Below are positions 6,520 to 12,162 of a stretch of 64,000 nucleotides of DNA, piece by piece. The notes beneath the pieces were generated by a model, which saw nothing but the letters and a program-made list of their open reading frames with translations, did no database searches and was not told where the DNA came from. Position 1 is the first letter of the stretch. Every line of letters starts with the position of its first letter. The position numbers and the translations under genes are program-made. The stretch is from Anaerolineae bacterium (GTDB taxonomy: Bacteria; Chloroflexota; Anaerolineae; Aggregatilineales; Phototrophicaceae), in assembly GCA_014879665.1 (NCBI GenBank), contig JACSRP010000114.1, positions 1 through 64,000 of the forward strand. Direction: 5' to 3'.

Positions 6520-6666
6520 ATGATGGTTGATAATTTTGAGCGCGGAATTTCGCTGCATGGAGGTGTACCCGCCCCGTGGCGTGCCTTTTCCGGGCTGGCC
6601 GGGGCGGAAACGAAAGTGATGCTCATCCCAAACCGGAATCAGGAAAATATTGGAGGTAAAACTTGA
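6520..6666 (+). CDS. possible 48-residue ORF upstream of and overlapping tkt
   Basis: Too short for the ORF track. ATG at 6520 opens [20 protein letters not shown] and runs without stop to TGA at 6664-6666. That stop overlaps the TTG start of transketolase (TTGA), the arrangement seen in translationally coupled genes. The tkt ribosome site lies inside its last codons. No homology is recognised and no ribosome site precedes it, but a TATAAT box ends 8 bases upstream. It could be a leader ORF controlling tkt translation or chance. Confidence 0.3.
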
Positions 6667-8669
6667 CCAACAATCTAGAACTTCAAGCGATTAATGCGAT
6701 CCGCACTCTCTCCATAGACGCCGTGCAGAAAGCCAATAGCGGCCATCCCGGGCTGCCGATGGGCGCAGCGGCAATGGCTTTCACGCTGTGGACGCGGCAT
6801 TTAAGGCATAACCCGCGTGATCCGCATTGGGCAAACCGGGATCGCTTTGTGCTGAGTGCAGGGCATGGCTCGATGTTGTTGTACTCTTTGCTTTATCTAA
6901 CCGGCTATGACGTGACGTTGGATGATCTCAAGAATTTCCGGCAGTGGGGCAGCAACACTCCCGGCCATCCTGAGTATGCTGTGACGCCCGGTGTGGAAGC
7001 TACGACTGGCCCGTTAGGGCAGGGGGCGGCGAACGCGGTGGGCATGGCCCTGGCCGAAGCATTTCTAGCACATACTTTCAACCGCTCCGGGTATGAACTG
7101 GTTAATCATTACACCTATGCGCTGGTGAGCGATGGCGACGTGATGGAGGGCGTGAGCGGAGAGGCGGCTTCGTTGGCCGGAACGTGGGGATTAGGCAAGC
7201 TGATCTATCTCTACGATAGCAACCATATCACCTTAGATGGTAAAGCCGAGATGACTTTCACCGAAGATGTGGCAGCGAGATATCGCGCTTATGGCTGGCA
7301 TACTGTAGAAGTGGCCGATGGCAATGATGTAGAGGCCCTCAATCAAGCGATCAACGAAGCTAAAGAGGTGACCGCGCGGCCTTCGTTCATCACCATTCGT
7401 ACGATTATCGGCTATGGCAGTCCGAATAAAGGCGATAGCAGCGAAGCGCATGGTTCGCCTTTAGGTGTTGATGAAATCAAACTGGTCAAAGAATTCTACG
7501 ACTGGCCGCAAGAAGATTTCTATGTGCCCGGCGAATCGCTTGAACTATTTCGTTCGGCACTTGAAAGCGGTGCGCGGCTTGAAAATGATTGGAATGAATT
7601 ATTCCTGAATTATCGTAAGGAATACCCTGAACTGGCCGCGCAGTGGGATCAGGCGATAGCTGGCGAACTGCCAGAGGGTTGGGACAGCGAAATTCCGACT
7701 TTTGGTACGGAAAAGAAGATCGCAACCCGCAATGCTGGCGGCGCTGTGCTGAACGCCATTGCTAAAAACATTCCCACGATGATTGGCGGCGATGCCGACC
7801 TTGCCGGAAGCACCAAAACACTGATCAAGGGCGAGGGCAACACCGGCCCCAATCATCCTGCTGCCCGCAATGTGCGTTACGGCGTCCGTGAACACGCGAT
7901 GGGTTCAATCACTAACGGACTGGCGCTGCATGGTGGCATCATTAAACCCTATACCGCCACTTTCCTGACCTTCAGCGATTATATGCGCCCCGCGATTCGG
8001 CTTGCTGCACTCTCTGAACTTGCGCCGGTCTTTGTGTTCACCCACGACAGCATCGGTTTGGGCGAGGATGGCCCGACTCATCAGCCGGTTGAGCATTTCA
8101 TGGCGCTGCGCGTGATTCCGCATCTGTATTTCTTCCGCCCGGCAGATGCCAATGAAACAGCCGCCGCATGGCGAACGGTGATGACTCTGAATCGCCCCGC
8201 CGCATTTGCCTTGTCACGGCAGGACTTACCGGTGTTAACCGGCGAAGAAATTGGCGGCGTGGAAGCGATTCATGCTGGTGTGGCGCGTGGTGGCTATGTA
8301 TTGGCGGGTGCGCATGGCACGCCGGATGTCATTTTAATGGGAACTGGCAGTGAAATTTCTATCGCCTATGAGGCCTATGAAATCTTGAAGGCAGAAGGCA
8401 TTAATGCCCGTCTGGTTTCGCTGCCATGTTGGGAGTTATTTGACCAGCAGGATGCCGAGTATCGCGAAAGTGTGCTGCCATCATCGGTCGAAGCGCGGGT
8501 CAGCATCGAGGCCGGCGTTACGTTGGGTTGGGGACATTATGTTTGGGGCGGTACTGCCATTGGCGTGAATAAATTTGGCGCCAGTGCACCCTATCAGCGC
8601 ATTTATGAAGAGTATGGGCTGACTGCGGCTCATATGGTTGAAGCGGCAAAGCAGCAGTTAGGTGTTTGA
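6663..8669 (+). CDS. tkt: transketolase
   Basis: Thiamine-diphosphate enzyme that transfers two-carbon ketol units between sugar phosphates in the non-oxidative pentose phosphate pathway. The 668-residue protein has the N-terminal [10 protein letters not shown] segment, the cofactor motif SDGDVMEG...DSN, the GVREHAMG segment of the pyrimidine domain and the C-terminal transketolase domain. The start codon is TTG at 6663, chosen because GGAGGT lies five bases upstream. It stands directly upstream of the transaldolase/isomerase fusion, so the two genes together interconvert pentose, triose and hexose phosphates. Confidence 0.98.
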
Positions 8670-8778: not shown

Positions 8779-11640
8779 ATGGCTGGAAATCCTCCGGTCG
8801 ATGTACAGCGATACGGGCAAAGTATCTGGTACGACAATATTCACCGCTCCATGCTAAAAAACGGCGAATTGCAGGGGCTTATTGATCAAAGCGGCGTTCT
8901 AGGTATCACCTCCAACCCCACCATTTTTCAAAAGGCTATCAGCAGTTCCGATGATTACAATGAGGCAATTGCTTCAATGTTGGAACTGAATGCTGAAGCT
9001 ATCTACGAACAACTTGCGCTGGATGATATTCGTGCCGCGCTGGATATGCTGCGCCCAATTTATGATCGCACCGGCGGGCGCGATGGCTATGTCAGTCTTG
9101 AAGTATCCCCGCTGATCGCTAACGACTCAGAGACGACCTTTGCCGAGGCGAAGCGGCTGTTTGCGGCGCTGGCTAGGCCAAACGCCATGATCAAAATTCC
9201 TGCGACGAAAGCGGGCATTCCTGCTATTGAAGAAGCGATTGCCGCTGGAATCAATATCAATGTGACGCTGATCTTTGGGCTGGAAAATTATGGTGACGTG
9301 GCTGAGGCCTACGTGCGCGGGTTGGAGCGCCGCCGCGCCGCAGGTGGAGATGTTACCGGAATTGCTTCTGTCGCCAGCTTCTTTTTAAGCCGTATTGACG
9401 CCATGGTAGATAAGATGCTGGACAATAACATTCGCGCTGCTCAGGGTCGTGATCTGGCGCGAGTTGCCTTGAACAATAAGCTTAAGGGCAAGACTGCGAT
9501 TGCCAGTGCCAGAGTCGCATATGCGCAGTTCAAATCCGTGTTTTACGGTCAGCGATTCTCCGCGCTAAAGGCTGAAGGCGCCATGCTCCAGCAGTTGCTA
9601 TGGGCCAGCACTGGCGTGAAAAACCCGGCGTATCCCGATACCCTATACGTGGATAACTTGATCGGGCGGGATACGATCAATACCGTGCCGCCGGAAACCC
9701 TCGCAGCTTTCAAAGATCATGGTACGGTTGCCGCGACGCTCGAAGAGAACATTGGTGATGCGATAACCACGCTGGATATGCTGGCGGAAGTCGGCATTGA
9801 TCTGGCACAGATCACCTCCCGTTTACAGCAAGATGGCGTAGAAGCTTTTGTTGACTCCTTCAAGGCATTGATTGATCAGATTGAGGCGCGCCGTAATGTG
9901 TTGCAAACAGGCGTGATCCATGAGCAGGAAAGTGTGATCAGCGGGCGTCACGCCGATGTTGAAGCTGCCATTCACGATCTTGAATCAGAGCATACAAACG
10001 CACGGCTTTGGAACCGTGATGGTACGCTCTGGCGAGATCACCCGGTTGTATCCACTAAGATTGGCGGCGCATTGGGTTGGCTAGACCCTCTAACGCCGAT
10101 TGATTTCGCCCGCTTGCAGCAGCTTAGCGCGGCGGTGAAAGATAACTATGACGCTGTTATATGGATGGGTATGGGCGGCAGCGCACAACCGGCGGCGGTG
10201 TATTCGCAGGCTTTTGGCGCTCAACCCGGCTTTCCGGTGTTTTATTTGCTCAACACCACCGATCCCGATGAAATCACGCGCATAGAATCCGCTGTAGATC
10301 TTAAACGCACGCTCTTTGTGGTTGCCAGCAAGTCTGGCGAAACTTTTGAAACGCTGGCGCTGTATCGTTATTTCTTTGAAAAAGCCGGGCGGGAAGGTAG
10401 CCAGTTTGTAGCGGTGACCACGGCCGGATCACGGCTAGATCAACTTGCAGGAGAGGGCAATTTCCGCGAGGTTTTTCATGAGTCGCCAGACAGCCTTGGC
10501 AGTTACAGCGCGTTGGGATATGTCGGGTGGGTGCCAGCCGCGCTGCTTGGCATAGACTTTGATCGCCTGCGTACCAGCGTTGAGCGTATGTTAAAGGCCA
10601 GCAGCGCACAGATTATTGCCGCTTCGCATCCGGGTATTTCTCTGGGCGCAGTGCTCGGCGCAGTCAGTGCCAATGGGCAGGACAAGCTCACGGTATTCAC
10701 TAGCCCCTCAATCGCCGCGTTCACGCCGTGGGTTGAACACTTGATTGCCGAAAGTACCGGCAAAGAAGGCCGCAGCATTTTACCGATCACCGGCGGCACT
10801 GTGGGCAAGCCCCATGATTACTCCACAGACCGGTTGTTCATCTATATTCGGGTTGAGAATGACAATAACGCCGAAATAGACAGTGAAATTTTAGCCATGC
10901 AGGGGGCGGGACATCCAGTAGTTACCCTGCGTCTGCGCGACGAATATGCGCTTCCCGGCGAATTTTTCCGCTGGATGTATGCGGCTGCGATTGCAGCAAA
11001 GCTGTTTCAGGTCAACCCGTTTGATTCCCCCAACATCAATGAAGGGCGACAAATATTTGAGCGTCTGCTTGCAGATTTGCGACAGGATGGCAAGGTTCCA
11101 GAGCAAGCCCCGCTTGTTGCAGAATCGCAAGTTTCCTTATTTGCTTCGCCTCAGATTTCGACTGCTTTACGCGATCTTGCGGGTGATCAGGGGTTTGATG
11201 CGAATACCGCGGTTGGCCTGCTGGCCGCACAGCTAAACGCGACGACTACCGGTGAGTTTTTTGCTATTCTGACCTACTTGCCGCCAACAGATTCCCTGAA
11301 AACGGCGTTGGAAGACCTGCGCCGCCGTTTACGTCACTCGACCCGTCGTGCCATCGCGCTCAGCTTTGGGCCAGAATATCTGCACAATACCGGGCAGCTG
11401 TACAAGGGCAGCGGCAAAAATGGCGTCTTTATCGTCATCACCGCCGATAATGCCAGCTATCTACCCGTACCCGGCGAGCCGTTTAGCTTCGGCGATGCGC
11501 ATCGGGCGCTGGCGCTTTCAGATGTTGAAGCCCTGCAATCACAGGGATACCGCGTCCTTCGCCTGCATGGTGCTGCGCCAGAGGCGGCGGTGAAGCTGTT
11601 GAGCGACGCTGTCAATGTGGTCATGAAGCGGCGGGCCTAG
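8779..11640 (+). CDS. bifunctional transaldolase / glucose-6-phosphate isomerase
   Basis: A 953-residue fusion. Residues about 1-370 are a transaldolase: early SNPTIFQKAI, the Schiff-base lysine in IKIPATK (Lys139) and VASFFLSRID. Residues about 395-953 are a phosphoglucose isomerase, with the sugar-phosphate loop SKSGET (517-522) and a diverged C-terminal part. Transaldolase moves a three-carbon unit between sugar phosphates; the isomerase interconverts glucose 6-phosphate and fructose 6-phosphate. The same fusion is known from other bacteria, so it is not a sequencing artefact. GGAG lies 8 bases before the ATG. It follows tkt and probably shares its transcript. Confidence 0.95.
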   Translation: MAGNPPVDVQRYGQSIWYDNIHRSMLKNGELQGLIDQSGVLGITSNPTIFQKAISSSDDYNEAIASMLELNAEAIYEQLALDDIRAALDMLRPIYDRTGGRDGYVSLEVSPLIANDSETTFAEAKRLFAALARPNAMIKIPATKAGIPAIEEAIAAGININVTLIFGLENYGDVAEAYVRGLERRRAAGGDVTGIASVASFFLSRIDAMVDKMLDNNIRAAQGRDLARVALNNKLKGKTAIASARVAYAQFKSVFYGQRFSALKAEGAMLQQLLWASTGVKNPAYPDTLYVDNLIGRDTINTVPPETLAAFKDHGTVAATLEENIGDAITTLDMLAEVGIDLAQITSRLQQDGVEAFVDSFKALIDQIEARRNVLQTGVIHEQESVISGRHADVEAAIHDLESEHTNARLWNRDGTLWRDHPVVSTKIGGALGWLDPLTPIDFARLQQLSAAVKDNYDAVIWMGMGGSAQPAAVYSQAFGAQPGFPVFYLLNTTDPDEITRIESAVDLKRTLFVVASKSGETFETLALYRYFFEKAGREGSQFVAVTTAGSRLDQLAGEGNFREVFHESPDSLGSYSALGYVGWVPAALLGIDFDRLRTSVERMLKASSAQIIAASHPGISLGAVLGAVSANGQDKLTVFTSPSIAAFTPWVEHLIAESTGKEGRSILPITGGTVGKPHDYSTDRLFIYIRVENDNNAEIDSEILAMQGAGHPVVTLRLRDEYALPGEFFRWMYAAAIAAKLFQVNPFDSPNINEGRQIFERLLADLRQDGKVPEQAPLVAESQVSLFASPQISTALRDLAGDQGFDANTAVGLLAAQLNATTTGEFFAILTYLPPTDSLKTALEDLRRRLRHSTRRAIALSFGPEYLHNTGQLYKGSGKNGVFIVITADNASYLPVPGEPFSFGDAHRALALSDVEALQSQGYRVLRLHGAAPEAAVKLLSDAVNVVMKRRA

Positions 11641-11699
11641 CGACCGCAAAATTGTATTCAATTGTGCATAAATATTTCGTCAGAATTAAGTGCGGGCTG

Positions 11700-11728
11700 T
11701 TTACAAGCTGGCACTCTTAGCGTATGAT
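11700..11728 (+). promoter_or_regulatory. putative promoter of the FmdB-like gene
   Basis: TTTACA (11700-11705) and TATGAT (11723-11728) are exactly 17 bases apart, each matching 5 of 6 consensus positions. They lie 48 bases upstream of the start at 11777. The gene also has an AGGGGAAT ribosome site. Confidence 0.65.
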
Positions 11729-11776
11729 TGCTAACTGGTGATTTCGATCACAATGATCTTTCTGAGGTAGGGGAAT

Positions 11777-12112
11777 ATGCCAGTTTATACGTACCGTCGT
11801 GAAGATGGGACGACGTTTGATTACCGCCAGAAATTTAGTGATGCTTCGCTGACGGTTGATCCTGAAACGGGAGAGCCAGTGACGCGCATTGTGCAGGCGG
11901 CTGGCATCATTTTCAAAGGCAGCGGGTTCTATATCAACGATAGTAAGGGCGCTTCAAAAACCAGCACGACCGCGCCTGCTGCATCTAAAAATGGCAGCAA
12001 AGACAGTAAAGAAGCTAAAGATAGCAAGGAAACCAAAGCCGAACCAGCGCCAGCAAAGGAGAAGACGCCAGCGCCGGCTAGTACCAGCACATCATCGGCG
12101 GCTGCCGATTAA
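11777..12112 (+). CDS. FmdB-family small protein lacking the zinc-ribbon cysteines
   Basis: Residues 1-57 follow the FmdB/CxxC_CXXC_SSSS pattern: MPVYTYR at the start, QKFSDASL in the middle and IIFKGSGFYINDSK at the end. The family normally has two CxxC knuckles; here the matching positions read RREDG and VDPETG, and the whole protein contains no cysteine. It therefore should not bind zinc the usual way. A Lys/Glu/Ala/Pro/Ser-rich tail of about 50 residues follows, likely disordered. The family's role is poorly known; it is often called a regulator. It has its own promoter and a strong terminator. Confidence 0.8.
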   Translation: MPVYTYRREDGTTFDYRQKFSDASLTVDPETGEPVTRIVQAAGIIFKGSGFYINDSKGASKTSTTAPAASKNGSKDSKEAKDSKETKAEPAPAKEKTPAPASTSTSSAAAD

Positions 12113-12133: not shown

Positions 12134-12162
12134 AAACGGGAAAGATTAGCTTTCCCGTTTTT
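12134..12162 (+). terminator. Rho-independent terminator after the FmdB-like gene
   Basis: AAACGGGAAAG-attag-CTTTCCCGTTT gives an 11-bp perfect stem with a 5-base loop followed by more Ts. A-rich sequence on the other side means it may also stop the convergent HEAT-repeat transcript, which ends at 12183. Confidence 0.92.

Follow-up and report, generated by a model that had tools for sequence, protein, structure and literature searches.

Ruc, encoded by Rv0991c of M. tuberculosis, is an FmdB-family, redox-regulated heat-shock chaperone that is HrcA-repressed and heat-induced (PMC7448276). Zinc bound to its Cys8, Cys11, Cys29, and Cys32 holds the protein inactive; oxidation releases the zinc, and Ruc in this state keeps luciferase from aggregating and assists Hsp70. 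The C8S/C11S and C29S/C32S variants are zinc-free and active without oxidant, and Ruc needs its disordered tail (PMC7448276). Ruc was found in 100% of 22 Chloroflexi genomes, where Hsp33 is rare or absent (PMC7448276). In our search, Hsp33 was found in none of 41 relatives, and therefore Ruc may fill the Hsp33 niche. Among ribosomal proteins, C-minus paralogues keep the ribbon fold without the zinc-binding Cys, and the C-plus and C-minus pairs are under Zur.

The cysteine-free protein and its family

The DNA analyzed here, referred to as the window, is a stretch of 64,000 nucleotides from an Anaerolineae bacterium. At positions 11777–12112 (+ strand), an open reading frame with an ATG start and FmdB profile matches encodes a 111-aa FmdB/Ruc-family protein consisting of MPVYTYRREDGTTFDYRQKFSDASLTVDPETGEPVTRIVQAAGIIFKGSGFYINDSKG and a hydrophilic tail, with no Cys over its whole length. 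Residues 1–42 (11777–11902, +) form a three-stranded ribbon domain, in which the zinc-binding Cys are replaced by R8, D10, D28, and T31 and the first knuckle is shorter by one residue. This domain is followed by a conserved segment, G-[IV]-[IV]-FKGSGFY-[IV]-N-D (residues 43–56; 11903–11944, +), retained from the four-Cys family, and by a hydrophilic low-complexity tail (residues 57–111; 11945–12109, +), which is predicted to be disordered and ends in AAAD.

Alignment of the protein with a profile of four-Cys homologues by hhalign gave a probability of 100% and an E-value of 2.4e-40. C8, C11, C29, and C32 corresponded to R8, D10, D28, and T31, respectively, one residue being deleted within the first CxxC, and none of the four CxxC...CxxC zinc ligands was present. 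The protein scored 30.2 bits against TIGR02605 (NCBIfam, FmdB zinc ribbon) over the full model length and 25.3 bits against PF09723 (Pfam), just under the curated cut-offs of 31.3 and 34.4 bits, respectively, because the defining CxxC...CxxC is absent. The TIGR02605 result is borderline: a second scoring of the same frame gave 31.1 bits, or 31.4 bits with neighbors, and this model matched all 61 aligned clade members. By homology, the window protein is a member of the FmdB family. It lacks the Cys cluster by which both the zinc-ribbon family and the redox-regulated Ruc group are defined, and is a Ruc-like variant that is not classed as a redox-regulated chaperone. A CxxU FmdB selenoprotein is known (PMC2398784); hidden selenocysteine (TGA) at the old Cys sites of the window protein was excluded, the codons there being sense codons for R, D, D, and T.

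AlphaFold2, run with 60 clade homologues and with no metal placed, predicted ribbon strands at residues 3–8, 13–17, and 34–38 with pLDDT values of 93–94. Values for the tail were mostly below 55 and, from residue 61, mostly 44–52. The same strands were predicted for a four-Cys order-mate with pLDDT values of 89–91. In this model, the ribbon fold can accommodate the Cys-less sequence, which says nothing of stability. Of the claims of an earlier sequence-only reading, that of an FmdB frame kept with all four Cys replaced was confirmed, and that of a fold held without zinc was supported at the level of prediction. Aromatic, aliphatic, and Cys residues account for 3% of the tails. A search for a solved homologue yielded only chance zinc fingers by sequence, and the fold matches in the PDB, to the MCM N-terminal region and the RbpA ribbon, were weak and non-significant (E above 0.5).

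To define the distribution of the gene, we used 154 genomes from the window's order, of which 98 fall within its GTDB-type family. Homologues were found in 91 of the 98 family genomes, 90 of them strong (59–100% identity) and one weak. Outside the family, 52 genomes of the order had matches, all lower-scoring and below about 60% identity, and every sequence read from these order-mates had four Cys. In four-Cys FmdB homologues, the Cys lie at exactly positions 8, 11, 29, and 32, as in Ruc. Among the 88 distinct proteins of the clade set, which includes one degenerate duplicate (L168), the domain contains no Cys in 43, one in 44, and two in one. Position 28 is Cys in 44 and Asp in 42, with no other residue. 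This single Cys, present in many family members, was overlooked in the sequence-only reading, as was the operator described below.

Of the 15 invariant columns in the four-Cys set, four are the Cys; the remaining eleven are M1, P2, Y4, Y6, Q19, G44, F47, K48, G49, G51, and D56. In the Cys-less set, each of these eleven is either invariant or conserved to 90% or more. New invariants in this set are R7, R8, D10, G11, P29, and G32, and position 31 holds T or S. The dN/dS ratio (Nei-Gojobori) between the window gene and its nearest orthologues was 0.04–0.06 where dS was measurable, and the median over 1459 pairs was 0.13. The Cys loss is real and lineage-wide, and the gene is under purifying selection. 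Decay into a pseudogene was excluded on dN/dS and conservation. The sequence-only reading was, in its own terms, to be overturned if the gene proved to be a lone decaying copy accompanied by a normal FmdB; this fails against a gene carried by 90 of the 98 genomes with a dN/dS of about 0.06.

In a tree built on 63 columns, the four-Cys state undergoes a single change (SH-aLRT 90), and one Cys persists in both of the deepest clade branches (L167 and L031). The pattern suggests that three Cys were lost first and that C28 was lost later and more than once. When the Cys columns were masked, the domain tree was poorly resolved owing to too few columns, and the best tree had three changes. This masked version of the proposed mapping of Cys loss on a tree is too poor to prove a single loss. 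Both the RRxDG motif and the deletion common to the clade suggest that the four-Cys state was lost once.

Three further observations were made in this set. L168 (G096:C73) is a degenerate duplicate in which YRR is kept and FKGSGFY is destroyed, a truly decaying copy alongside a normal one-Cys orthologue in the same genome. The hypervariable tail ends in AAD, often AAAD, in 36 of the 43 distinct zero-Cys proteins (12101–12109 in the window), compared with 5/44 one- or two-Cys proteins and 4/43 four-Cys proteins; a C-terminal end conserved in this way might act as a signal for docking or turnover. One record bearing the name of a cyanobacterium, 'Pleurocapsa minor', contains a clade gene (L043, 83% identity) with match coordinates equal to those of G011, a genome of the window's genus, and is probably a mislabelled MAG.

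Upstream region and gene neighborhood

Upstream of the gene lie a sigma-70-type promoter, TTTACA-17-TATGAT (11700–11728, +; 10/12 match), and a GAGGT ribosome-binding site conserved in orthologues (11764–11768, +). A putative CIRCE, the HrcA operator, with the sequence CTGGCACTC-N9-GATTGCTAA (11708–11734; 15/18 matches), overlies the -10 box and the promoter spacer. Between the window, G010, and G011, the -35/CIRCE/-10 block differs very little, while its flanks have diverged. Downstream, a hairpin with an 11-bp stem (12134–12160, +; folding z = -2.5) is a probable (bidirectional) terminator; owing to the short T-run on the plus strand, a simple scan scored it as a terminator for the minus strand alone. 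Of the strong promoter and strong terminator previously read from the sequence, the former is credible, lying inside a block conserved in two other genomes, and the latter was somewhat overstated.

HrcA is encoded in the genome of the window, and CIRCE sites with up to three mismatches were found at three places in the whole genome: at this gene and at two positions upstream of groES-groEL. By our own estimate, about one 3-mismatch site per genome is expected by chance, and a reversed-pattern control gave one; therefore, position and conservation carry the argument. A PWM trained on the other CIRCE sites of the relatives, mostly paired and groESL-like, with the sites of this gene excluded, scored the window site at 22.4; the highest score among 3847 control windows (150 bp each) was 8.5. 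By sequence, the window gene is a putative HrcA-controlled gene.

Across the clade, 19 of 88 genes had a CIRCE above the 99.9% null level, comprising 16 of the 43 zero-Cys genes and 3 of the 45 genes with one or two Cys. At the same level, CIRCE was found in 7/7 four-Cys homologues of Actinomadura and in none of the sampled four-Cys genes from elsewhere in the order. Another subclade has CIRCE over the -35 region instead (TAGACA-16-TATGAT), and the two placements suggest, from the sequences, repeated recruitment. No recognizable CIRCE was found at about 69 of the 88 clade genes, although CIRCE-like matches occur in every one of 41 relatives; HrcA control is therefore lineage-variable, not general. 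No clear candidate for an HspR/HAIR operator was found upstream, the best sites mostly matching at 7–9 of 14 positions.

A second conserved upstream element, TAAATATTTCGTCAGAAT (11669–11686, +), with a consensus of about TAAAAATTnCRTCAGAAT, is located at approximately -90 to -120 in the majority of zero-Cys orthologues, many of which have no CIRCE. Matches of at least 9/11 were found at 26 of the 43 zero-Cys genes versus about 2% of control windows. The only genome match better than two mismatches was at this gene, and the element was rejected as a regulon motif, with no other genome match above the control level.

By eye, a transketolase gene (6663–8669) precedes a gene directly upstream (8779–11640) for a 953-aa protein, which is likely a transaldolase/glucose-6-phosphate isomerase fusion. 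Neighbors differ between subclades, with tkt and tal-pgi here and SixA-like, epimerase, and guaA genes elsewhere. A conserved chaperone neighborhood was excluded, no chaperone being present among the clusters inspected.

Explanations of the cysteine loss

The sequence-only reading took the Cys loss to suggest that the function of the family in this lineage is not metal binding. The loss of zinc ligands is indeed lineage-wide, but that reading misses the role of zinc as the off-switch in Ruc, and loss of zinc therefore predicts a gain of constitutive activity. We consider it moderately probable that the window protein is a natural zinc-free, redox-blind Ruc that is active as synthesized and whose amount is set by transcription, here through HrcA. 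It would be the Ruc orthologue of this lineage, an HrcA-controlled holdase-type chaperone with the zinc/thiol switch removed. The ribbon, predicted to fold without metal, would leave the tail and FKGSGFY permanently open to unfolded clients. In the genome of the window, the promoter would be blocked by HrcA bound to CIRCE and freed, together with groESL, under heat or proteotoxic stress. For the window system, computation shows the homology, the Cys loss, the selection, the CIRCE, and the predicted fold, and from these we infer the chaperone activity, the constitutive state, and HrcA binding. Set against this explanation are the documentation of chaperone activity in one relative only, the clade majority lacking a recognizable CIRCE, the chance expectation for a 3-mismatch CIRCE taken alone, and the poor resolution of the masked domain tree; moreover, zinc is not modelled by AlphaFold, which may return the family fold whatever the stability. 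More tentatively, the family as a whole may have exchanged a post-translational redox switch of the chaperone for transcriptional heat-shock control, with stepwise Cys loss and repeated CIRCE recruitment.

The main rival, which we rate as unlikely, is that the protein is a scaffold or adaptor, for example for the ribosome, RNA polymerase, or Hsp70, with the ribbon serving as a docking module only, structural zinc replaced by polar contacts, and the activity state unchanged. The new invariants R8, D10, [T/S]31, and G32 at the old knuckles fit this proposal, as does a weak resemblance in fold to the RbpA ribbon and to the N-terminal region of MCM, but these fold matches are non-significant, and the Cys-to-Ser variants of Ruc, the one characterized member, show that zinc loss alters the activity state.

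A zinc-sparing replacement, in which a Cys-free copy does the job of a zinc binder in zinc shortage like the C-minus ribosomal paralogues, would also explain four missing ligands with a fold predicted to stay. We regard it as improbable, given the paralogues and the operator of this genome. A protein search against the genome that contains the window returned one match, the Cys-less gene, and no C-plus partner with FKGSGFY. Two other four-Cys FmdB-like proteins (L001 and L002), above the Pfam cut-off, are retained in this genome; they have no FKGSGFY and belong to other subfamilies, and the operator found is CIRCE. In the relative G003, the Cys-less protein is the sole TIGR02605 match at E <= 0.001. 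On these grounds, too, the refuting condition named in the sequence-only reading fails.

A shade less probable still is a transcriptional regulator, as in the FmdB annotation (formamidase regulator), a reading that draws on the historical family name only, and against which stand the lack of a stable target-gene neighborhood across the clade, the absence of a recognized DNA-binding motif, and a CIRCE link that points to proteostasis. Relaxed selection on a gene heading for loss has almost no probability: the stepwise Cys loss (from four to one to zero) and the one truly degenerate duplicate, L168 in G096, are outweighed by the low dN/dS, the open frame in 90/98 family genomes, and the conservation of all non-Cys invariants and of the promoter block.

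Comparison with known systems

The window gene shares with the C-minus ribosomal paralogues a Cys-less ribbon with its fold kept, here by prediction; those paralogues occur as C-plus/C-minus pairs under Zur, whereas the window gene is a single copy with CIRCE. Hsp33, a redox-activated chaperone with a zinc centre, follows a Ruc-like logic in which zinc loss activates, but its sequence and fold are unrelated (PMC7448276).

The published description of Ruc is of a redox-regulated chaperone family whose defining feature is a zinc-binding Cys cluster. A large Chloroflexota clade drops this cluster and keeps the protein, and the presence of the family therefore does not imply redox regulation. This clade offers a natural experiment on what keeps Ruc off and which part binds clients; the ribbon surface, FKGSGFY, and the tail, still conserved without the Cys, are candidates for the working part. 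The window protein resembles Ruc in its ribbon, FKGSGFY, and hydrophilic disordered tail, and, by sequence, in a small stand-alone gene with an HrcA-type operator over the promoter. It differs in the absence of the four zinc/redox Cys and in having one residue fewer in the first knuckle, and is therefore without a zinc or disulfide switch; Ruc, for its part, has an additional SigH input. If the explanation as a zinc-free, redox-blind Ruc is true, the family is the natural, conserved counterpart of the laboratory Cys-to-Ser mutants of Ruc.
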